IMG/VR virus record: IMGVR_UViG_3300035232_001590
Location: 1 to 52,112 of that record
Source: a virus
Length of the DNA stretch: 52,112 nucleotides
Reading direction: 5' to 3' (one strand)
Below are positions 1 through 16,608 of the stretch, in pieces. Position 1 is the first letter of the stretch. The number at the start of each line of letters is the position of its first letter. The notes under the pieces are model-generated. The model was not told the origin of the DNA, ran no database searches, and was given only the letters and a program-made list of their open reading frames with translations. The translations under genes were made by a program, and so were the position numbers.

Positions 1-346
1 CTGGAGCAATGCTAGAGCTAGGCTTTAAGCCCTTAGATTTAATGTAATCCTCTACCTCTTTACGAGAATTAAAAAGAAGCTCCTCCAGAGGATCCGCATA
101 ATTTGGAACCAACACAAGTTGAACCAGTTTATTACTACCTTTTTGAATTACAGTGCTTATTTTCGATTCCGAAAAGCCAGTTACCTTATTTTTTTTAAGG
201 AATTTACAAAGACTCTCAACATCTGAATGAATGTCCCATTCTCTAGCTACATAGGAATCGTCAATTTTATTATACTCAACAATTCGGTCTTTAAGAATTG
301 ATAGTTGATACTTTTCAGTTACATTTTGTTTGATTTCTTCAGTCAT
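1..346 (-). CDS. Hypothetical protein, C-terminal part outside window
   Basis: A minus-strand reading frame opens with ATG at 346 and runs without a stop to the window edge, giving about 115 residues (start MTEEIKQNVTEKYQLSILKD). It is soluble and rich in Lys, Glu and Ser, with no signal peptide or membrane segment. I do not recognise the family. Its ATG lies inside the last codons of the Clp-type gene (8-base overlap), so it is the next gene of the same operon and is probably translated by coupling. A charged segment near residues 92-108 looks helical. The product's length and end are unknown. Confidence 0.75.
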   Translation of the reverse strand, partial: MTEEIKQNVTEKYQLSILKDRIVEYNKIDDSYVAREWDIHSDVESLCKFLKKNKVTGFSESKISTVIQKGSNKLVQLVLVPNYADPLEELLFNSRKEVEDYIKSKGLKPSSSIAP

Positions 347-2750
347 TTATATCTTCTTTGTTTATTTTTAATGTGCCAGTTTTATTGATTATAATCCATC
401 TAGATGCTATGTTTTCAACTTTTTTTTGCAATATTCTTTTTACTGGTCTGGCTCCTAATTCTTCTTTAAGAGCAAGGTCTGTCATGTAATCCATAGCCTC
501 TTCCGATACAATCAATTCTATCTTACTCTGTTTTAGTTTTAATTGCAAGGCTTTTACTTTTAATTTTAAAACATTCTTTAATTGATCTTTGTCGAAATCA
601 TTAAAAACTACAATTTCATCTAGTCGGTTTATAAGCTCTGGTGTTAATGTTTTTTCAGCCTCTTCTCTAATTTTTAACCTTATTCCATCTGAGCTTGAGG
701 TCTGGTTGAAGCCGAAGGACCCCCCTTTTGATAAGTTGAGGGCTCCAATATTTCCAGTCATTATAACTATACAATTACTAAAATCAGATAGCCTTCCGAA
801 GTTGTCAGTCAACCTACCTTCTTCAAGCAACTGAAGCAATATATTTAAAACTTCAGGGTGAGCTTTTTCAACCTCATCAAATAATAAAACTGAGTAAGGT
901 TTTAATTTTATCTTGTCTGTAAGTTGCCCTCCATCATCGTAACCAACGTATCCAGGAGCTGACCCTATGAGCCTTGATATGTTTATCTTTTCAGAGTATT
1001 CTGACATATCTATATGTATTAAATTATCTTCGCTCCCAAAATATTCTTTAGCGATTGTTTTTGCTAAATATGTTTTACCTACACCTGTTCGACCCAAAAA
1101 CAAAAAGGAACCCATTGGTTTATTCTCATCAGAAAGACCACTTTTTGATCTAATTAAGCAATCTGAAATTGTTAGCACAGCTTCTTCCTGAGAGAAGACT
1201 GTTTTGTTTAAAGATTTGCTTAAATTTATGAGTTTTTCAGAGTCTTTTTGGGTTAAGTTTCCTACGGGGATTCCAGTTCTAGAAGAGATCACATCAAAGA
1301 TATCCTCTTTAGTAACAAAGAATCTTGTTTTTTCGTATTTACTAGCCCATTTATCTAAAACAGATTTATATTTCTCTATCAACTTATCCTGCTTCATTGC
1401 AAATTTATTATCAGTACTTTCTGCATTATCCTCCTCCAGCATCAACAACTCTATTTGTTCCTCTAGATCTTTTGCCGACTGAGGTTTTGTGAAGTTTTTC
1501 ATTTTAACTTTTGCTCCCGCTTGATCTATTATATCTATAGCTTTATCTGGGAGCTGTCTATCTGGTATATATCTGACCGACATATCAACAGCTAATTTTA
1601 TAGAATTTTTTCTATAAGAAACATGATGGAATTTTTCATATTGCTCGATGATTCCATTAATAATTTTGTATGTTTGAGTCTGTGATGGCTGGTTTATCTC
1701 TATTCTTTCAAACCTTCTTTCTAAGGCAGAGTCTTTTGTAGTAAATTTTTTGTATTCTTTAGGGGTGGTAGCTCCAATGCACTTTATTCTGCTTCTAGCT
1801 AAAGCTGGTTTAAGTATATTTGCAGCATCCATACTTCCTTCAGCAGCACCAGCACCTATTATTGTATGTATTTCATCTATAAATAAAATAATATTCTGGT
1901 TTGATTCGACCTCTTGGATAATACCTTTTATTCTTTCTTCAAATTGACCACGATATTTTGTCCCAGCTATTATTCCAGCAAGATCAATTTCGTAAATGGT
2001 TTTATTTCCCAAAAAATTAGTACAACTTCCATTTACTATTGATTGAGCAAGCCCCTCTACAAGAGAAGTTTTTCCAGTACCTGGAGGTCCTACTAATATG
2101 GGATTATTTTTATTTCTTCTGCATAATATTTCAGATATTTTTTCTATCTCTTGTTCCTTACTTATTACTTTATCAAAAGCACCTTGTTGTGCTAATATAT
2201 TATAATTTTTAGCATAAAGTTCTAAATTTGTTGAACTGGATGGGTCTTTTGTTTGAGGGGTGGATTCGAAGTTTTTAGGAATCCTGTTCTGTTTCCACTC
2301 CCCAGTGGAGAAAAAATTCCTCAACTTTTTAATCGCTTTCTTTAGGTCAACATCAAAAGTTTTTAAGAAGCCAGGTAGAGGAGAAGCATCAAAGGTAAGT
2401 AGGACATAAAATAAATGTTCAACCCCTATATAGTTGTGATCTAACTCTTCAGAGAAATCCTTAGCTGAAGTAAAAACCTCCTTAAAGTCAGAACAAAAAA
2501 CAGAAGGTTTTTTATCTGCAGCAGCGGTGTCTTCGAAATCATTATCAATTTCGTTGTATACAAAAATTTTAAAATCTTCTAGTGGTATATTTAAATCTTG
2601 AAAAAAGTTAAGTATAGTTGATTGATCCGTATCCAAAATAGAATGAAGGAGATGGTTTAAACAAATATTTGTTGAGTTTAAATTCAGAGAAGTTTCTCTG
2701 GACAGGTTGATTATTTTTTGAACCCTAGGGGTTAAGTTGAATTTATTCAT
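339..2750 (-). CDS. ClpA/ClpC-type AAA+ protein unfoldase
   Basis: An 803-residue Hsp100 ATPase, predicted to form a hexameric ring that unfolds proteins with ATP. Residues 1-145 resemble a Clp N-domain. The first AAA+ module has Walker A GPPGTGKT (221-228) and Walker B LFIDE (289-293). The second has Walker A GRTGVGKT (553-560) and Walker B VLLFDEVE (621-628). The middle region is short (about 430-470), unlike the long ClpB coiled coil, so ClpA/ClpC is the better fit. After the second Walker B, FGF (679-681) sits where ClpC-type proteins carry the hydrophobic-Gly-Phe loop that docks on ClpP. No ClpP gene is visible, so it could feed host ClpP or act alone. The ATG directly follows the stop of the polymerase core, so the two are probably coupled. 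Its target is unknown; replisome remodelling or redirecting host proteolysis are options. Confidence 0.93.
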   Translation of the reverse strand: MNKFNLTPRVQKIINLSRETSLNLNSTNICLNHLLHSILDTDQSTILNFFQDLNIPLEDFKIFVYNEIDNDFEDTAAADKKPSVFCSDFKEVFTSAKDFSEELDHNYIGVEHLFYVLLTFDASPLPGFLKTFDVDLKKAIKKLRNFFSTGEWKQNRIPKNFESTPQTKDPSSSTNLELYAKNYNILAQQGAFDKVISKEQEIEKISEILCRRNKNNPILVGPPGTGKTSLVEGLAQSIVNGSCTNFLGNKTIYEIDLAGIIAGTKYRGQFEERIKGIIQEVESNQNIILFIDEIHTIIGAGAAEGSMDAANILKPALARSRIKCIGATTPKEYKKFTTKDSALERRFERIEINQPSQTQTYKIINGIIEQYEKFHHVSYRKNSIKLAVDMSVRYIPDRQLPDKAIDIIDQAGAKVKMKNFTKPQSAKDLEEQIELLMLEEDNAESTDNKFAMKQDKLIEKYKSVLDKWASKYEKTRFFVTKEDIFDVISSRTGIPVGNLTQKDSEKLINLSKSLNKTVFSQEEAVLTISDCLIRSKSGLSDENKPMGSFLFLGRTGVGKTYLAKTIAKEYFGSEDNLIHIDMSEYSEKINISRLIGSAPGYVGYDDGGQLTDKIKLKPYSVLLFDEVEKAHPEVLNILLQLLEEGRLTDNFGRLSDFSNCIVIMTGNIGALNLSKGGSFGFNQTSSSDGIRLKIREEAEKTLTPELINRLDEIVVFNDFDKDQLKNVLKLKVKALQLKLKQSKIELIVSEEAMDYMTDLALKEELGARPVKRILQKKVENIASRWIIINKTGTLKINKEDIND

Positions 2751-5318
2751 TTATCTTAAATCGGACAGTTTCATATAAATTTTTTCATCGACAATAGAAA
2801 GTTCTTCTAAGAAGATAATATCTTCTCCTTTTGAGCCTAAAAATATAACTATACTTGTTTTTTCTGGCATCTTAGATTTATTTTTAAATTTAGTAAAATT
2901 TTTAAACCTACCGTCAACCAATATAGCATCATACCTCCCGAATTCATCACTTAATGTTAGTTTTAAGTAATCATTTCCATTTTTACTTTTTCTAGAAAAG
3001 GAATCTTCAACAACAGCTATACATTTTATCTTATCACCCTTGCTTGCCGAGTAAACATCTAGCGAATTTTTTAAATTTTTATTATTACCAAAACAGTTTC
3101 TTAACTCATTACTATAACTAAATCCAAGTAAAGATTTTTCAAAATACCAATTAGCAAAGTCTTCATATTTTTTATTTTGCTCATATATTTTTTTGTAAGA
3201 CTGGTATTTTTTCTTCAAAGTCTCAAATCTTGAAGGTTTAATTATAGGTTTGCCGTCATCACCTACCTTTTGATTTTTTACGGCAACATCAATAGAGCTT
3301 AATATATCAAAACTATACTCATCGCCAATCGAAGTGAAATTTCTTTTTTCTCTGTCGGTTAAAAGGTTAAAAACCTGTGCTTCAAGAACTAACCTAGGTC
3401 TATTGGTTTTAAAAGAAGACAAAGCTCCTGCTTGTATCAACGCAGAAAGAACTCCTATATTTAAACCAGAATCTTTTGCCGACATAAAAGTTTCATATTT
3501 ATTAGGTTGATTTGATGATCTAAAGTCTTTCAAATAAGATAAAGATTTCTCACTTATGCCTTTTATACTATTCAGCCCAAACCTAATGTTTTTTCCCTCT
3601 TTAGAGAAGTCCATGTCCGATAAAGCTAGATCTGGAGGAAGCAACTCTATCCCAAAGAAGGATAACTCTTGGCTTATTTTACTTATCTCTTCTTGAGGAC
3701 TGGGTTCGTATTTAGTCATCCTAAGTAAGCTTAAAAAGAACTCTTGTGGGAAATTAAATTTTAAATAACAAGTCCAAGCCGCCAAAAAAGAATAAGATAT
3801 TGAGTGGCTTTTATTAAATGAATAGTTAGCACTATCTTCAGCTACCTTCCATAAAATATCAGACACAGATTGATCAAGATTTTTTTCTTTTACTTTTTTA
3901 TCTATCTTTTTCTTCCATTTAGGCATTTGATCTACCTTTTTCTTTCCAACTATACGCCTCAATTCTTCTGACTCTTCCAGACTGAAGCCGACTTTTACAG
4001 CCATTTTCATCAACTGCTCTTGGTATAGAGGTATTCCTCCTGTATAGCCCAGAACATCATCAAAGAAGGGATGAATACTTTGTGAGTTACCAGTCTCTAC
4101 ATATCTCTGGTAATGGTCAACAAAATCCATAGCTCCTGGTCTCGCTATAGCAATTACAGCGCTAAGCTCTTCCAAGCTCCTTGGTTTTATTTTTTTACAA
4201 ACCATATAGTTTGCACTAGCTTCTATCTGAAACAATCCATGAGGATTTTCTAACTTAGATAAGTGAGCAAATATTTTATCGGAAGATAAGTCTATATCGC
4301 CAGGTTCTATGTTTATAGATCGGCAAGTGTGATGAATTGCGGATAAAGTACGTAAGCCTAATATATCAAACTTCACCATTAACTCAGAGACCCAATTCAT
4401 GTCATAACCGCTAACGAGGGAGCCATCATTCGTTTTTTGTAACGGACATATTTCCGAAATCTTATCATAGGATATAGCTATTCCAGAAGGATGCACTCCC
4501 ACGTTTTTCTTTAAACCTTCTATCTTTAAACAAATATCGTATATTGCTTCATTTTTCTGAGAGAATTCTTTAAATTTTTCACTTTCGTTAATCGCTTTAC
4601 CTAGCTTCATTACTACTCCATACTCTTTAGGGATCATGTCGCTAATTACATTAACCTCTTGTTCAGACATTTGCCCAGCAATTTTCCCGCATTCTTTAAC
4701 GCAAAGCTTTCCGCTAAGAGTATTAAGTGTTAAAATTTTAGCAGTTCTTGATGGGTATTTTTTTTCTATATATTCAATAACTTTTTGCCTATGCTCATAA
4801 GCAATGTCATTATCTATATCAGCCAGCAAGCTTCCATCCAAATAAACAATTCCATCTTTTTCTGTCTTTTTTGCCCTGCTTTTTGAGACAAACCTTTCAA
4901 AGAAAAGTTCATACTTAATTGGGTCTACTTTTGTTACACCTATTAAGAATAAAACTAGAGAGCCTGCTGCGGAGCCCCTTCCAGGGCCTGTTGGAATACC
5001 CTCAATATGACAATAATTTATTATATCCCAGTTGAGTAAGATGTAATCTATAAAACCAAGAGATTTTAACGTATTAAGCTCTGAGTTTAGCCTATTTAAA
5101 TAAATATTATTATTTTCATCTATATTTTTTAACTTAAAACCTTCTGTACATATTTTTTTTAAAAAATTGAAGTTGGATATTGATTTAGGTTTTATTTTTA
5201 AATCATTATAGTACTTATCATCTATTATGATTTCTGGCAATCTAACTCCTGGAGGAATACAACCTTCATACGAAGAGAAGTTTTCGTAAAATTTATTGTT
5301 TAAATCTCTAGCTGCCAT
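2751..5318 (-). CDS. dnaE: DNA polymerase III alpha subunit, catalytic core without PHP domain
   Basis: An 855-residue C-family replicative polymerase core. Visible motifs are GPGRGSAAGS (111-120), the two-aspartate metal motif ADIDND (Asp167, Asp169), the third catalytic Asp318 in VKFDILGLRT, GVHPSGI (274-280), an LYQEQLMKMA segment and SFNKSHSISYSF in the fingers region. A C-terminal OB-like segment (about 765-850) follows. The N-terminal PHP domain that normally opens DnaE is absent: residue 1 aligns with the point just after PHP in E. coli DnaE (roughly residue 272-285 from memory). The missing domain is encoded separately at 7059-7802. The two proteins total 1102 residues, close to full-length DnaE. 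The gene overlaps the 3'-5' exonuclease gene by 19 bases. I see no clear clamp-binding motif. Confidence 0.95.
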   Translation of the reverse strand: MAARDLNNKFYENFSSYEGCIPPGVRLPEIIIDDKYYNDLKIKPKSISNFNFLKKICTEGFKLKNIDENNNIYLNRLNSELNTLKSLGFIDYILLNWDIINYCHIEGIPTGPGRGSAAGSLVLFLIGVTKVDPIKYELFFERFVSKSRAKKTEKDGIVYLDGSLLADIDNDIAYEHRQKVIEYIEKKYPSRTAKILTLNTLSGKLCVKECGKIAGQMSEQEVNVISDMIPKEYGVVMKLGKAINESEKFKEFSQKNEAIYDICLKIEGLKKNVGVHPSGIAISYDKISEICPLQKTNDGSLVSGYDMNWVSELMVKFDILGLRTLSAIHHTCRSINIEPGDIDLSSDKIFAHLSKLENPHGLFQIEASANYMVCKKIKPRSLEELSAVIAIARPGAMDFVDHYQRYVETGNSQSIHPFFDDVLGYTGGIPLYQEQLMKMAVKVGFSLEESEELRRIVGKKKVDQMPKWKKKIDKKVKEKNLDQSVSDILWKVAEDSANYSFNKSHSISYSFLAAWTCYLKFNFPQEFFLSLLRMTKYEPSPQEEISKISQELSFFGIELLPPDLALSDMDFSKEGKNIRFGLNSIKGISEKSLSYLKDFRSSNQPNKYETFMSAKDSGLNIGVLSALIQAGALSSFKTNRPRLVLEAQVFNLLTDREKRNFTSIGDEYSFDILSSIDVAVKNQKVGDDGKPIIKPSRFETLKKKYQSYKKIYEQNKKYEDFANWYFEKSLLGFSYSNELRNCFGNNKNLKNSLDVYSASKGDKIKCIAVVEDSFSRKSKNGNDYLKLTLSDEFGRYDAILVDGRFKNFTKFKNKSKMPEKTSIVIFLGSKGEDIIFLEELSIVDEKIYMKLSDLR

Positions 5319-5941
5319 AATATCTTATTCAATACTTCAAAAGTTTTTTCAACATCATAAAGAGCTTCGTGAAGTTTTTTATCATCAAACTCTAACGAGT
5401 AATCTTTGCAAAGTTGTTTTAAATTAGTTTTTATACCTCTAGTTCTCAAGTGATGAAGTTTGTATTGATAGCTTATTATACTGTCGTTTTTAGAGAAAGC
5501 AATATCATTTTTTATGCCTCTAGCCAAACAATTAGTATCTAAAATTCTATTTATATAAGAGTAGTCTGATTTTAACCCAAGCAACGCTCTATGTATGTTA
5601 TGCATATAAACATCAAACCCAAGAATATTGTGGCCTACAATTAAATACTCTTCATCATATAAATATTTTTCAAATTCATTTAAACATTTTTTTGAGTCTT
5701 GCTTTAGTTTGTCGTATTTGGATTTAGAAAATTGAGTTATTCTTTCTGCTTCTTTAGACATTTTTAAATCATCCCAACTTAAGTAGAAATCATACTTGTT
5801 TATTACCTTACTGCCCTTTGCAATAATGAACCCTAACTGCCAAGGCTTATTACTGTAATGATTAAGGTTCAAATTACATGTTTCATAATCAAATATTAAA
5901 TACTTTTGATTCTTTTTAAATCTTAATAATTCTTCATTCAT
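5300..5941 (-). CDS. DEDDh 3'-5' exonuclease, DnaQ/epsilon-like
   Basis: A 213-residue exonuclease of the DnaQ superfamily. The acidic metal ligands can be placed: Asp18 and Glu20 in FDYETCNL (Exo I), Asp110 in VGHNILGFD (Exo II), and His191 with Asp196 in LHEALYDVEKT (Exo III), which makes it DEDDh. It lies between the PHP-domain gene and the polymerase core in one operon and overlaps both neighbours (8 bases upstream, 19 downstream). The natural role is proofreading, like epsilon of Pol III. In E. coli epsilon binds the PHP domain of alpha, so a phage exonuclease bridging two separate alpha pieces is plausible but is inference. An RNase T-like role cannot be excluded. Confidence 0.92.
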   Translation of the reverse strand: MNEELLRFKKNQKYLIFDYETCNLNLNHYSNKPWQLGFIIAKGSKVINKYDFYLSWDDLKMSKEAERITQFSKSKYDKLKQDSKKCLNEFEKYLYDEEYLIVGHNILGFDVYMHNIHRALLGLKSDYSYINRILDTNCLARGIKNDIAFSKNDSIISYQYKLHHLRTRGIKTNLKQLCKDYSLEFDDKKLHEALYDVEKTFEVLNKILWQLEI

Positions 5942-6107
5942 CTTCTGTTTTAAAAGTTTTCTTTAAGTCTTCTATTAAATTAACCTTGCTTCCTTTAGGA
6001 AGTTTTTGATATTCTTTTTTAAGTCTTCTTAGCATCCTTTTATGTTCTTTTATAGAAGGGTCGTAGTTAATTATCTTTTTTATTTGTGATACTTTTTGCT
6101 TATTCAT
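5934..6107 (-). CDS. 57-aa basic protein of the replicase operon
   Basis: A small frame from ATG 6107 to TGA 5936-5934 encodes 57 residues (start MNKQKVSQIKKIINYDPSIK). It is very rich in Lys and Arg (for example KRMLRRLKKEYQKL) and ends in an acidic tail. Its ATG shares the ATGA overlap with the GMP reductase stop, and its own stop overlaps the start of the exonuclease by 8 bases. This back-to-back coupling on both sides is good evidence that it is translated. I do not recognise a family. Size and charge would suit a helical adaptor or nucleic-acid-binding peptide, but nothing shows this directly. Confidence 0.72.
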   Translation of the reverse strand: MNKQKVSQIKKIINYDPSIKEHKRMLRRLKKEYQKLPKGSKVNLIEDLKKTFKTEDE

Positions 6108-7072
6108 AATATTTCTCTGTATTTAACCCCTTCTTTTAATGATTTCAAAGAGCTTCCACCAGCATAACTTATGGAACTTTGTAAGTCTTGAGTTATTTCG
6201 CCAAACTTTTCGCCTATAGTCATGCTATTGCAAGTAATGTTTGTTAATCTTCCTTCTATATTATTACTGTGACCTTTGTTTTCTGCACTCGCAGAACCAA
6301 AGTATGCTTTGTGAGGGACATCATTAATAGTACTTGTAACTGCTGGGCTATCTGTACAAGCGGCAAATAAACCTCCAGCCATAGCCATCCTAGCTCCAGC
6401 AACTAGAGACTTTGCTATATCTCCGTTGCATTTTATTCCTCCATCAGCAATTATTGGAACAAATGTTCTATTATCTGATATAACATTAGAGCATTCTTGA
6501 ACGCATGTAAACATAGGCATAGTAAATCCAGTTTTATCTTTAGTAGTACATGGAGAGCCCTGACCTATTCCGACTTTAACTATGTCTGCCCCCCAATTAG
6601 CCAACTCTTTAACCGCACATGAGCTAGCCACATTACCAGCAATAATTCTTGTCTTAGGTAAATGTTTTTTTATGTGATTAATCATCCCTTTCATTCTTTG
6701 ACAATAACCATGAGCTATATCTATAGTGATAAAGTCAACTCTTAAATTAGAACACTTTGAGATTTTGGTTATTTCAAGCTTATCTTTGAGTTTTACACCA
6801 ACACTAAAAGATATTGTATCCCAGCCTTCAGAATTTGCTAAGGCTACATCGTCCGACAAGTTGCTATCAAATCTATGCATAATATAAAAATAACCATGAG
6901 AACTCATCCACTTAGAAATGTTCATATCTATTACCGATTTCATATTTGCAGGGATAATTGGTAGTAAATATTTTTTACCAAATAAATCTATGGAAGTATC
7001 GCAGTCAGCTCTACTATGAACCTCACTGTAATTAGGTATTAAGCATATATCTGAGTATTTAAGAGCTTTCAT
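6104..7072 (-). CDS. guaC: GMP reductase (IMPDH/GMPR family)
   Basis: A 322-residue TIM-barrel enzyme without CBS domains. It should catalyse NADPH-dependent reductive deamination of GMP to IMP. The catalytic-loop Cys175 lies in GIGQGSPCTTKDKTGF, preceded by AGNVASSCAV and followed by ADGGIKCNGDIAKS (209-222), which binds the phosphate. The start (DICLIPNYSEVHSRADCDTS) and the C-terminal YFGSAS and DLQSSISYAGG segments follow the Bacillus GuaC pattern as I recall it; length and the SPCTTKDKTGF loop favour GMPR over IMPDH. It sits between the PHP gene (14-base overlap) and the 57-aa gene (4-base overlap). A role could be to recycle host GMP towards adenine nucleotides in an A+T-rich phage; that is inference. 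Confidence 0.92.
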   Translation of the reverse strand: MKALKYSDICLIPNYSEVHSRADCDTSIDLFGKKYLLPIIPANMKSVIDMNISKWMSSHGYFYIMHRFDSNLSDDVALANSEGWDTISFSVGVKLKDKLEITKISKCSNLRVDFITIDIAHGYCQRMKGMINHIKKHLPKTRIIAGNVASSCAVKELANWGADIVKVGIGQGSPCTTKDKTGFTMPMFTCVQECSNVISDNRTFVPIIADGGIKCNGDIAKSLVAGARMAMAGGLFAACTDSPAVTSTINDVPHKAYFGSASAENKGHSNNIEGRLTNITCNSMTIGEKFGEITQDLQSSISYAGGSSLKSLKEGVKYREIL

Positions 7073-7802
7073 GATCTAAATAACTTTCAAAGCAAAACTC
7101 ATCACTAGAGCAGTGGTTCAAATTAGGGGTTTCCAAGCTAAGCGATCTTGTGGATGGACCTCTGTTGCACAAACATTTATAAGTCTGATAGGCGGAAAAA
7201 TCTGATCTTTTATTATAATAAATACTTTTAACATCGTTTGTTTTAAATTTATTAACTTCACAATAATTGAGAACATGAGTCTTTATTAAATCATCAAAAG
7301 GAAGATTGTTCGACTCTATAAAGAAGGTTGGCTCAACAAAAGAAAACTCAGGAATACATTCATTGAAATACATAATGTTATTAAATATAAAAGAATCATA
7401 AAACGGTATAGCTAAAAAAAGGTTATCACTCCAAAGTTTTTTTAAATTTTTATAATCTATAAAACCTCCACCATCAACCTGAGAATAAGTATAAATTTTA
7501 CTTAAAGACTTACATCCGAATTCGTTTTTAGCAAAAATTATAATTTTATGAGATGTTTTAGGATCTAAATTTTCTGCCACGGTTATTTTGATGCCATATA
7601 TTAAATCAATACCTAACTCTTTGCAGTTACTAAAAGCTTCCATAAATCCGATCATGGAGTCTTCAACCAATACTAGTTTTGATAAACTGTTTTCGGATAA
7701 AATATTGAAAATGCTGGAATCTGGTTTTTCGGAAATTGATTTTAAATCCAAGCGAAGTATACTTTTCCCTATAGAAAAATCAGATTTAAATAAAGGTAAC
7801 AT
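7059..7802 (-). CDS. Separate PHP domain of DNA polymerase III alpha
   Basis: A 247-residue protein matching the N-terminal PHP domain of DnaE. The order of segments follows DnaE: PLFKSDFSIGKSIL near the start, KLVLVEDSMIGFMEAFSNCK then LGIDLIYGIKI (where DnaE has its TDHGN...GIKPIIG run), IIIFAKNEFGCKSLSKI (the LLAKN..GY.NL segment), and KTNDVKSIYYNKRSDFSAYQ (the ATNDVH... segment). It stops just where the polymerase core gene begins in alignment. The His and Asp residues that bind metal in active PHP domains are mostly absent (no HxH near the start; VEDSM in place of TDHGN), so it is probably structural. The ATG at 7802 lies 6 bases from a -10 box, so the message should be leaderless. Confidence 0.82.
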   Translation of the reverse strand: MLPLFKSDFSIGKSILRLDLKSISEKPDSSIFNILSENSLSKLVLVEDSMIGFMEAFSNCKELGIDLIYGIKITVAENLDPKTSHKIIIFAKNEFGCKSLSKIYTYSQVDGGGFIDYKNLKKLWSDNLFLAIPFYDSFIFNNIMYFNECIPEFSFVEPTFFIESNNLPFDDLIKTHVLNYCEVNKFKTNDVKSIYYNKRSDFSAYQTYKCLCNRGPSTRSLSLETPNLNHCSSDEFCFESYLDHESS

Positions 7803-7808
7803 GTATAT

Positions 7809-7838
7809 ATCATAGCATGGAACCTATATAAAAGTCAA
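7809..7838 (-). promoter_or_regulatory. Sigma70-like promoter for the replicase operon, leaderless
   Basis: On the minus strand, TTGACT (7838-7833), an 18-base spacer and TATGAT (7814-7809). Six bases separate the -10 box from the ATG at 7802, so the expected +1 is the A of that ATG. No ribosome binding site can fit. Confidence 0.7.
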
Positions 7839-7840
7839 GC

Positions 7841-9367
7841 CTATTTGTCAAAATCAATATTTGGGACGATTATTTTTTCCAAATATTGATATCCATCTTT
7901 ATGCCTATAAACATTTTTTAGAATAGCAGCTTTGCATTCAAGTATTATTTTTCGCTTTTCTTCTTCCGTGAAAGAGTTAAACTTTTTAACACTTATCATG
8001 TTTTTATGAGTGTCTGGTTTGCCTGAATAAACCCACCTGTAGAACCATTGAAGCTGTTCGTTTGAGTAGCTATTGTCCTTGATAGCTTTTATGATAAGAT
8101 CCCTGTTTGAAATCCAAACTAGATCAGGCTCTGGTTTGGGCTTAGGCTTTGGCTCTGGTTTAGGCTCTGGCCTAGGCTTTGGTTTAGGCTTAGGCTCTGG
8201 TTTAGGCTTAGGTTTAGGCTTAGGCTCTGGTTTAGGCTCTGGTTTAGGCTCTGGTTTAGGCTCTGGTTTAGGCTTAGGCTCTGGTTTAGGCTCTGGTTTA
8301 GGTTTGGGATTAGGAGTCTTTGTAATAAAACCCGAAGACGCACAGATAATCATAACAATAGCTAAAGGATCAAATACTAGAACTATTAAAAGTATTACAA
8401 TTCTTATCGACCTATCTGTTCCTACTTCTGGACCTCCAAATTCAACTATCAATTCCGCTATATATTTTATTGGGCCAAGCTCATTCTCTATTGCCATGTT
8501 TTTTGATTCTAAATCAAACTTAAGGACACTTAAGGATTCTATAGCCGAAAGAGCATCTTTTATATTTTTCTCATGAATTGCTATTAAGTTTAAATCCGAA
8601 GTGCTTGTTTCGGGTCTTGAGTTTTGAGCCTCAGAAATTTTTAACCTTAAAGAATCCACTTTAGCATTGGCAGATTCTTTAGATTTAGAATTTCTTTCAC
8701 TTATTTTTTTAATTTCACTAGAGATAAAATCTCTCTCCTCTTTTTGAGAAAGCTCAAGTGCTTGTATTTTTTTTGAACTACTAGAAAAGAAACCTTGTTT
8801 TTGATTTCTTAAGTCATCCATAGAACCGTCTAACCCTTTTAATCTTTCTCTTAGTTTTTCTAATTCAAGTGCGTTATTATTTATCTCTAAATCTAACCTT
8901 GAGTATATTAAAGATATATCAGAAGTTAAGGTTTTTTTAATTTCTAATCTTGTTTCTGAATCCTCTTCTTTAGAGGAATTTTTTTTGATAATAGATTCTC
9001 TTTCTCGCGTTATCTTTTCTTCTTCGAGAGCAGTCTTTCTTTCTATTTCTGAAATTTCTTGTTTTATGAATTTAGAACTAGCACCATGCTCTACATGAGA
9101 CTTACTTAAGAAACCGAAGATTCCAGTACTAGTTATCCCCATTAGAGTTACAACAGAGAAACATAAATAAAATTTAGTTAATATAGATATAGATTTCCAG
9201 TTTCTATGAGCCCAGACTGCAACTATTATTTTTGCTACCTCAAGAGCGACAGCCATTGTAATTATCGAATATATAGACCCTGGAAATATATTAGAAAGAC
9301 CTATTATACTAAAATAGGCAGCTATTGCTGACAAGGAAAGAGCTGAGAGTAGTAAGGCGTATGTCAT
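7841..9367 (-). CDS. Membrane-anchored coiled-coil protein with Lys-Pro/Glu-Pro repeat
   Basis: 508 residues. About three hydrophobic segments lie in 1-90, a charged coiled coil spans about 100-300, one more membrane segment is at about 321-347, then a run of alternating KP and EP dipeptides (353-415), and a C-terminal domain of about 95 residues with WFYRWVYSG. The overall plan and the N-terminal segment ([12 protein letters not shown] ... [14 protein letters not shown]) recall a membrane protein common in marine T4-like phages; this is from memory. The KP/EP stretch resembles the rigid spacer of TonB and could span a periplasm-sized distance. Function is unknown; an envelope or lysis-timing role is conceivable. 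It follows the 85-aa gene with a 4-base overlap and ends just upstream of the replicase promoter. Confidence 0.85.
8123..8311 (-). repeat. Short tandem repeat encoding alternating KP/EP
   Basis: Degenerate 6- and 12-base units (plus strand ggtttaggctct and ggcttaggcttt variants) encode residues 353-415 of the membrane protein. Such runs change length by slippage, so the array probably varies between relatives. It is not a CRISPR array: there are no spacers. Confidence 0.9.
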
Positions 9368-16174: not shown

Positions 16175-16202
16175 TATAGTGTTATATAATATATACACTA
16201 TA
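16175..16202. promoter_or_regulatory. Inverted repeat TATAGTGT...ACACTATA
   Basis: Eight-base arms (16175-16182 and 16195-16202) flank a 12-base A+T core containing TATATTATATAA on the minus strand. It sits 2 bases upstream of ATG 16172 and overlaps the stop of the nuclease gene. It could be an operator, a late-type promoter, or both. A hairpin terminator is unlikely at this A+T content. Confidence 0.4.
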
Positions 16203-16608
16203 AATTAATTCCAAACTTTTCAAAAAGAGATTCGCTTAGAGTGTCGTTGTCATAAACTTCGACCAACTTAATATCATTTAATTCACAAAACTCTCGTTTC
16301 TGCTGATCCCTTCTTAGCTGATCCATATAATTCATTTTATGACCTCCGTGAAAAAATTTAACATATCTCCTGTGTTGAGCTCCCTGAACTTCTATAGATA
16401 TTTTCTTTGTCGCATTATAAAAATCTAAGCTAAGTCTAGTTCCTGCGACAGGAAACTCTTCAAATACCACATGGTTTTCCCAATATTTTTTAAGAAATTG
16501 CTTTGTGCTGAATTGTATTTTACTTTTGCTTTTAGCCTCCCAGTCAATTATATATTTTCTTATCTTTGCGACTCTTTTTAAATTTCCGTGAAGCGTTTTA
16601 AATTTCAT
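16198..16608 (-). CDS. Small PD-(D/E)XK-like nuclease (Vsr/DUF559-like)
   Basis: 136 residues. The core TRLSLDFYN (Asp62), then ISIEVQGAQH (Glu73, Gln75), then a Lys/Arg-rich helix (MDQLRRDQQKREFCEL) and a strand (IKLVEVYD) follow the order of Vsr- and DUF559-type restriction-fold nucleases, with E-V-Q in place of the usual E-x-K. It should cut DNA or resolve branched DNA. It lies directly after recA, its ATG touching the recA stop, which suits recombination or mismatch processing. A free-standing homing endonuclease is a less likely alternative. Confidence 0.68.
   Translation of the reverse strand: MKFKTLHGNLKRVAKIRKYIIDWEAKSKSKIQFSTKQFLKKYWENHVVFEEFPVAGTRLSLDFYNATKKISIEVQGAQHRRYVKFFHGGHKMNYMDQLRRDQQKREFCELNDIKLVEVYDNDTLSESLFEKFGINL

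Follow-up and report, generated by a model that had tools for sequence, protein, structure and literature searches.

Bacterial DnaE polymerases, such as those of Taq and E. coli, carry the PHP domain and the polymerase in one chain, and PHP is described as universally present in C-family DnaE (PMC12926913, in excerpt). The PHP domain is reported to stabilise Pol III, and loss of its metal residues to accompany the presence of a separate exonuclease (PMC3666897, in excerpt); the PHP domain of E. coli binds the exonuclease epsilon, whereas the exonuclease of PolC is inserted into the PHP domain (PMC3919608, in excerpt). A DnaE encoded as two genes is known from cyanobacteria, in which the pieces are joined by split-intein protein splicing (PMC3919608, in excerpt), and a B-family polymerase split with an intein has also been described (PMC6892783, in excerpt). 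Among phages, PHP and core as two genes are mentioned in one sentence for Krampusvirus (PMC7302621), and the group 2.2 jumbo phages have a minimal Pol III alpha that is split inside the catalytic module (PMC7824862, in excerpt). Here, we describe a 52,112-base record of an uncultured virus (IMGVR_UViG_3300035232_001590; the whole stretch is referred to as the window), in which the PHP domain and the polymerase core of a DnaE are encoded by separate genes, with an exonuclease gene between them:

7059-7802, minus strand: PHP gene (247 amino acids, aa), with a DnaE-type PHP fold and replaced metal motifs.
5300-5941, minus strand: DnaQ-like DEDDh 3'-5' exonuclease (213 aa; RNase_T 7e-13, phrog_192 1.8e-15).
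2751-5318, minus strand: DnaE core without PHP (855 aa), comprising palm, thumb, fingers, HhH, and an OB-like domain.

The 247-aa protein is a DnaE-type PHP domain in a separate gene, as the initial annotation of the window had proposed; that annotation had named a profile search speaking against PHP as a refutation, and the searches instead identified PHP. Its match to Pfam PHP (PF02811; 5.8e-7, 30.4 bits against a cut-off of 26.4) is weak but over the cut-off and spans only residues 48-118; TIGR00594 matches at 5e-5, far below the cut-off of that model, and phrog_405 matches at profile positions 69-262 of 1190. All 22 members of the PHP family alignment match both PF02811 (E <= 0.01) and phrog_405 (E <= 0.001). 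Searching PDB sequences with the PHP profile gave nothing significant (best match PolC 3f2b, E 0.014), and structure comparison was therefore needed. The AlphaFold2 model (predicted local distance difference test, pLDDT, 82.6) has DnaE or PolC chains as all of its top 19 Foldseek matches, and residues 1-247 align with Taq DnaE 7-262 (VIA; Z 19.0, root-mean-square deviation 3.4, 229 residues). Other residues stand in place of the first-motif histidines, the DH(G) motif, and the canonical PHP Glu (alignment by eye); thus the metal motif of active PHP, HHDHEH[C/H]DH (PMC12926913, in excerpt), is not intact, as judged from its first motifs. Free-standing PHP enzymes exist, and the short span of the Pfam match would also suit a phosphoesterase or nuclease that depends on metal and has nothing to do with the polymerase; this identity is very improbable, given that the canonical ligand motifs are replaced, that DnaE and PolC rank first in the structure matches by a wide margin over the best free-standing PHP protein (RNase AM; Z 11.8, VIA), and that the gene precedes those for the exonuclease and core in all 115 contig groups described below.

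The core is of the DnaE type, because its profile search matched Taq DnaE 3e0d at 4e-110 vs. PolC at 3.6e-5. Pfam searches matched PF07733 (2.3e-63), PF17657 (5.1e-31), and HHH_6 (9.7e-15), with no PHP match in the core up to E 1. The AlphaFold2 model (pLDDT 77.8) aligns with Taq 2hpi 284-1112 and E. coli 2hnh 271-910 (VIA); one Taq chain, 4iqj_B, aligned from residue 71 instead of about 284. Following HhH, residues about 745-847 of the model match OB folds, with lower pLDDT there, and the alignment with DnaE ends at about Taq 1112. Core residues D167, D169, and D318 correspond (alignment by eye) to E. coli D401, D403, and D555, which we take to be the catalytic residues of that enzyme, and they are invariant in all 116 sequences compared (window included). 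Both Pfam and this invariance agree with the earlier description of a core that lacks PHP yet retains all three catalytic Asp. The core therefore has the palm with three catalytic Asp, the fingers, and the HhH of a C-family DnaE, with PHP in a separate open reading frame (ORF) rather than in the same polypeptide. As to the C-terminal tau-binding domain and the internal clamp-binding motif of DnaE, the core model stops aligning at about Taq 1112, and by eye no motif like QADMF of E. coli (920) was recognised in the core alignment.

The extreme C-terminus of the core is conserved, reading IYMKLSDLR in the window (2751-2780) and most commonly IYMKLSELK among relatives, and a loose C-terminal peptide pattern occurs within the last 20 core residues in 79/116 sequences; it is a possible docking peptide for a partner. 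One related locus (L097) has a core ORF with an N-terminal extension of ~230 aa that is non-PHP by family profile, the choice of start codon being uncertain. At another (L231, 5992-8979) the core gene is present as two ORFs (594 and 397 aa) that meet near a conserved EDSANYSFNK motif, possibly as a result of an intein, intron, or homing insertion.

Because the PHP and core models match Taq 7-262 and 284-1112, respectively, the two proteins tile one DnaE, and the break corresponds to the PHP/palm linker. This is where the initial annotation had placed it, and its observation that the sizes sum to a normal DnaE also holds (247 + 855 = 1102 aa vs. 1160 aa in E. coli DnaE). The PHP protein ends at the domain end, residue 247 being inside the alignment that ends at Taq 262, and the core aligns to DnaE rows from its residue 13-21 onward. 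Neither end of the break therefore has room for intein halves of usual size, in line with the initial annotation, which had seen no intein residues there. Joining of PHP and core after translation, for which cyanobacterial DnaE supplies the known mechanism (PMC3919608, in excerpt), consequently has almost no likelihood here, and the exonuclease gene lying between the two also argues against it.

In the exonuclease, D18, E20, D110, H191, and D196 (DEDDh) are invariant in 116/116 sequences, which is the active site of a DnaQ/epsilon-like proofreading exonuclease, and its profile matches the PolC exonuclease 2p1j at 7e-8. E. coli likewise pairs an inactive PHP domain with a separate DEDDh exonuclease, and the combination of replaced PHP metal motifs with a separate exonuclease fits the link between the two that has been reported (PMC3666897, in excerpt). 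The palm, fingers, HhH, OB-like, and PHP folds and the catalytic aspartates are common to bacterial DnaE and the window group, which differs in that its PHP is a separate protein and its exonuclease is short and encoded between PHP and core. As in PolC, the exonuclease is closely tied to PHP, although PolC is one chain with a non-DnaE type of core.

The same split recurs among related uncultured contigs. First searches found 17 loci with the core and 20 with PHP; one of the contigs found, IMGVR_UViG_3300031851_000004 (L002, L019), is virtually the same as the window and does not count as an independent case. Profile scans of IMG/VR yielded at least 534 stretches with a core relative (E <= 1e-3, with more distant DnaE possibly included) and 358 stretches encoding a PHP-family relative, and the best 80 were kept from each scan. 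Exactly one PHP, one exonuclease, and one core ORF are present in 179 of 194 loci; the remaining 15 comprise five with PHP alone, four with exonuclease and core, three with the core in two ORFs, two with PHP and exonuclease, and one with the core alone, and several of the 194 loci end at contig ends. No ORF in the 194 loci carries two of the three proteins at E <= 1e-5. Merging loci that share an identical gene gave 138 groups, of which 115 have the three genes complete and single and 23 were dropped from the counts; the 116-sequence counts consist of the 115 groups plus the window, of which L002 is the near-twin. The gene order PHP-exonuclease-core occurs in 115/115 groups, a count that speaks for order and not for retention, as the groups were chosen for having all three genes. 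In these groups, PHP and exonuclease genes overlap in 64 cases (21 by 4 nt, 43 otherwise) and are separated by up to 30 nt in nine and by 31-300 nt in six; exonuclease and core genes overlap in 92 (43 by 4 nt, 49 otherwise) and are separated by up to 30 nt in five and by 31-300 nt in 10.

Records searched whole (59-203 kb) contain a single core match in 10/10 and a single Pfam PHP match in 8/10; in the other two (L022, L024), a relative of the window PHP was found when the window PHP was used as the query. Nine loci come from metagenome-assembled genomes (MAGs; L224-L232), some of them truncated by contig ends and one (L231) with the core in two ORFs: exonuclease and core are present in 9/9 and PHP in 8/9, never within one ORF. 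They were binned to Flavobacteriaceae, Proteobacteria, Woesebacteria, Verrucomicrobiales, Lokiarchaeota, and others, and the contigs in these unrelated bins are probably mis-binned phage contigs. Because the window is an uncultured virus record, one might suspect that misassembly or a frameshift has only made a normal dnaE look broken, but such an origin is scarcely credible: three other genes separate PHP and core in the window, the order recurs in 115 groups, and in eight of the nine MAG loci the three genes are all present, in whole or in part, and unfused. The survey of relatives that had been proposed for the window thus recovers separate PHP, exonuclease, and core genes throughout the 115 groups, and the split is not an error, nor is it limited to a single record.

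Identity to the window proteins is 50-64% for the core (core alignment; mean column identity 73%), 41-54% for PHP (PHP family alignment; 60%), and 41-54% for the exonuclease (family alignment; 68%). The lower conservation of PHP relative to the core, which the exonuclease shares, and the replacement of the PHP metal motifs would be compatible with a core that works alone, PHP being a relic or repurposed, for example as an adaptor for the exonuclease or another replication protein. We regard this as unlikely, however, in view of the 179/194 loci with exactly one ORF for each of the three proteins, the DnaE character of the PHP fold, and the 18 PHP positions that are invariant across the 116 sequences.

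The neighbouring genes in the window are:

6104-7072, minus strand: GMP reductase-like gene (322 aa; IMPDH/GMPR 2.9e-56).
5934-6107, minus strand: ORF of 57 aa with no significant family match.
339-2750, minus strand: ClpA/ClpB-like AAA ATPase (phrog_4871 1.2e-225).

All of the ORFs initially annotated between PHP and core were recovered at their positions, overlapping and on the minus strand; from PHP through core, successive genes overlap by 14, 4, 8, and 19 nt, and the Clp gene directly abuts the core gene with no gap. The GMP reductase-like protein matches PRK05458 at 5.2e-97, yet below the cut-off of that model. It is encoded between PHP and exonuclease in 18/115 groups, which make up half of the 36 where these two genes are more than 300 nt apart, and the 57-aa protein was matched in 8/115 (tblastn E <= 1e-8; short, diverged copies may escape). 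These two genes therefore lie between PHP and core in the window as described but are inconstant in relatives: constant parts of the replicase are ruled out by these counts, and both are optional neighbours. Many longer loci share the order recA, p136, dnaB, primase, Cas4-like, PHP, exonuclease, core, Clp, and in most loci that extend far enough, the gene following the core is Clp; L033 has no Clp match behind the core. Situated between dnaB and recA, the p136 gene (window 16198-16608) has similarly placed relatives in many loci; its 136-aa product has no Pfam match at 0.001. Elsewhere in the window, a 508-aa protein (7841-9367) contains a long repeat near 8100-8330, and a long run of ORFs (25694-46107) resembles sugar-nucleotide, glycosyltransferase, and aminotransferase genes (judged by eye).

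A promoter of its own had also been proposed for the operon, and the candidate lies directly before the PHP gene:

7809-7838, minus strand: sigma-70-like promoter TTGACT-18-TATGAT, with TG preceding the second hexamer and the -10 box ending 6 nt before the PHP start.

The window alone does not support this proposal, as promoter-like sites are not above chance there (38 in 9.7 kb vs. 38.4 in shuffles); the support is comparative. With a site defined as <=2 mismatches to TTGACA-(16-19)-TATAAT and a -10 box ending 4-12 nt before the start codon, 62/115 loci have one at the PHP start, vs. 0.6% of base-shuffled upstreams, 1/115 at exonuclease starts, and 5/115 at core starts. When distinct upstreams are counted, sites precede PHP in 72/134, dnaB in 17/70, core in 5/124, Clp in 1/112, and exonuclease in 1/129, and there are none for primase (0/82), recA (0/45), Cas4-like (0/89), or p136 (0/62); the loci are related, so that the events are not independent, and start codons were assigned by script (first ATG). 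Conservation of PHP sets in almost at the first residue, which makes a later start unlikely; with the promoter so close to the start, the operon mRNA therefore seems to begin at or near the AUG. The position of the -10 box suggests a leaderless PHP mRNA, and the 17/70 distinct upstreams suggest that the dnaB mRNA may be leaderless as well.

Phage genomes in INPHARED were used for comparison. A tblastn search of its 50,697 phage records with the core matched 1305 records, none of them >60% identical, and the PHP search reached a best E of 8e-4, with 27 records up to E 10. A sample of 22 regions was examined, 21 picked from the core searches and one from the PHP search. In 17 of these, PHP and core form a single ORF, all with a Pfam PHP match. 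Two are broken between palm and fingers (phiT1, Cuke) and two are interrupted by endonuclease genes (KLEB27-3, from annotation only, and KKP_3916); these four resemble the window group in having DnaE in pieces, but the break is within the polymerase core, and phiT1, Cuke, and KKP_3916 retain a PHP that is fused to the palm or to the beginning of it. The last region, from Sparcetus, is broken at PHP/core. Krampusvirus (Microbacterium cluster EF; Krampus, Sparcetus) is thus like the window group in having adjacent PHP (344-345 aa) and core (751-767 aa) genes with the same boundary; in Krampus, a phage isolated on Microbacterium foliorum, these are the neighbouring genes 56 and 57. Unlike the window group, no exonuclease gene is annotated between them, and the Sparcetus PHP motifs look largely intact (by eye); Sparcetus has a 63-aa ORF at that position, with a weak, sub-cut-off zinc-ribbon match. 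The jumbo phages also have a C-family polymerase as two proteins, but their Pol III alpha genes are far apart, lack other Pol III domains, and occur alongside a B-family polymerase (PMC7824862, in excerpt), whereas the window-group core is whole from palm to OB-like domain.

In a 44-row tree, which carries long-branch warnings, 25 window-group cores form one clade (100/100), while Sparcetus groups with three fused proteins including that of Pbunavirus Epa7 (100/97). The nearest fused relative of the window group in this tree, tentatively in view of the long branches, is Chryseobacterium phage MA9V-3 (93/84), whose protein matches PHP at 1.8e-11. That the PHP/core splits all share one origin was rejected in a 19-row tree from which MA9V-3 was left out (one clade of all split cores, approximately unbiased test, p-AU 0.016). 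Because Sparcetus sits with fused proteins and the single clade is rejected, the PHP/core break has probably arisen two or more times in phages, a conclusion to be taken with caution as the branches are long. The initial annotation had regarded a replicase made of PHP, exonuclease, and core polypeptides as a new arrangement. Split precedents exist in Krampusvirus (PMC7302621) and the jumbo phages (PMC7824862, in excerpt), but the PHP-exonuclease-core trio stands as a feature conserved in relatives. In searches of the open-licence PMC literature and in the 22 INPHARED regions sampled from the 1305 records, we found no description of a PHP in trans with an exonuclease gene between, and the excerpts of PMC8008677, PMC2147016, PMC6892783, and PMC6102473 contain no such case.

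We consider it likely that DnaE was split in the ancestor of the group and that PHP, exonuclease, and core assemble in trans as a three-subunit replicase. A single-chain phage DnaE would have broken at the PHP/palm linker, and the pieces would have been kept as adjacent, often overlapping genes with the DnaQ-like exonuclease gene between them. The PHP protein may dock in trans on the palm, at the site of the linked domain in DnaE, where it would stabilise the polymerase, as the PHP domain does in Pol III (PMC3666897, in excerpt), and, like E. coli PHP with epsilon (PMC3919608, in excerpt), keep the exonuclease close to the primer end. Such a replicase would cooperate with the DnaB-like helicase and the primase that the phage encodes, and perhaps with a host clamp. 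In favour of this reading are the constant gene order with its frequent overlaps, the lack of fused ORFs, the tiling of one DnaE by the two models, the DnaE likeness of the PHP fold, the 18 invariant PHP positions despite the replaced metal motifs, and the invariant active sites of exonuclease and core.

Several observations weigh against such an assembly. Contact of E. coli epsilon with PHP is made through a long C-terminal tail. The phage exonuclease is short (213 aa) and, judged by length, lacks a tail of this kind, so that its contact with PHP would differ from that in E. coli. Gaps of more than 300 nt lie between PHP and exonuclease in 36/115 groups and between exonuclease and core in 8/115. 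Across 40 loci, the PHP-core distance correlation (0.92, partial 0.31) is not above those of core-primase and core-Cas4-like (both 0.95; partial 0.47 and 0.52). Twelve records of up to 203 kb, possibly fragments, contain no bacterial-type beta clamp (PF02767), PCNA-like clamps not having been searched for, and no PF13177 match over the cut-off; two weaker PF13177 matches fall in frames whose lengths (803 and 827 aa) correspond to that of the Clp ATPase. A more demanding version of the three-subunit replicase, to which we give a little better than even chances, is that it is obligate, expressed from one leaderless or near-leaderless transcript, with PHP acting solely as a scaffold, closing the palm and bearing the proofreader, the proofreading module gained or lost as a unit, and the PHP/core break having at least two origins.

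Since split phage Pol III genes, one of them with this boundary, are already on record, the window group represents a variant of the C-family replicase and not a new kind; in it, a universal enzyme has undergone a rearrangement that is conserved and recurrent. With 138 contig groups, the window group is well populated, and it has no core relative of >60% identity among the 50,697 phage records. Why C-family replicases retain a dead PHP is an open question, for which a structural role has been argued (PMC3666897, in excerpt). The natural separation of PHP in this group lets the core, the core with PHP, and the core with PHP and exonuclease be compared directly.

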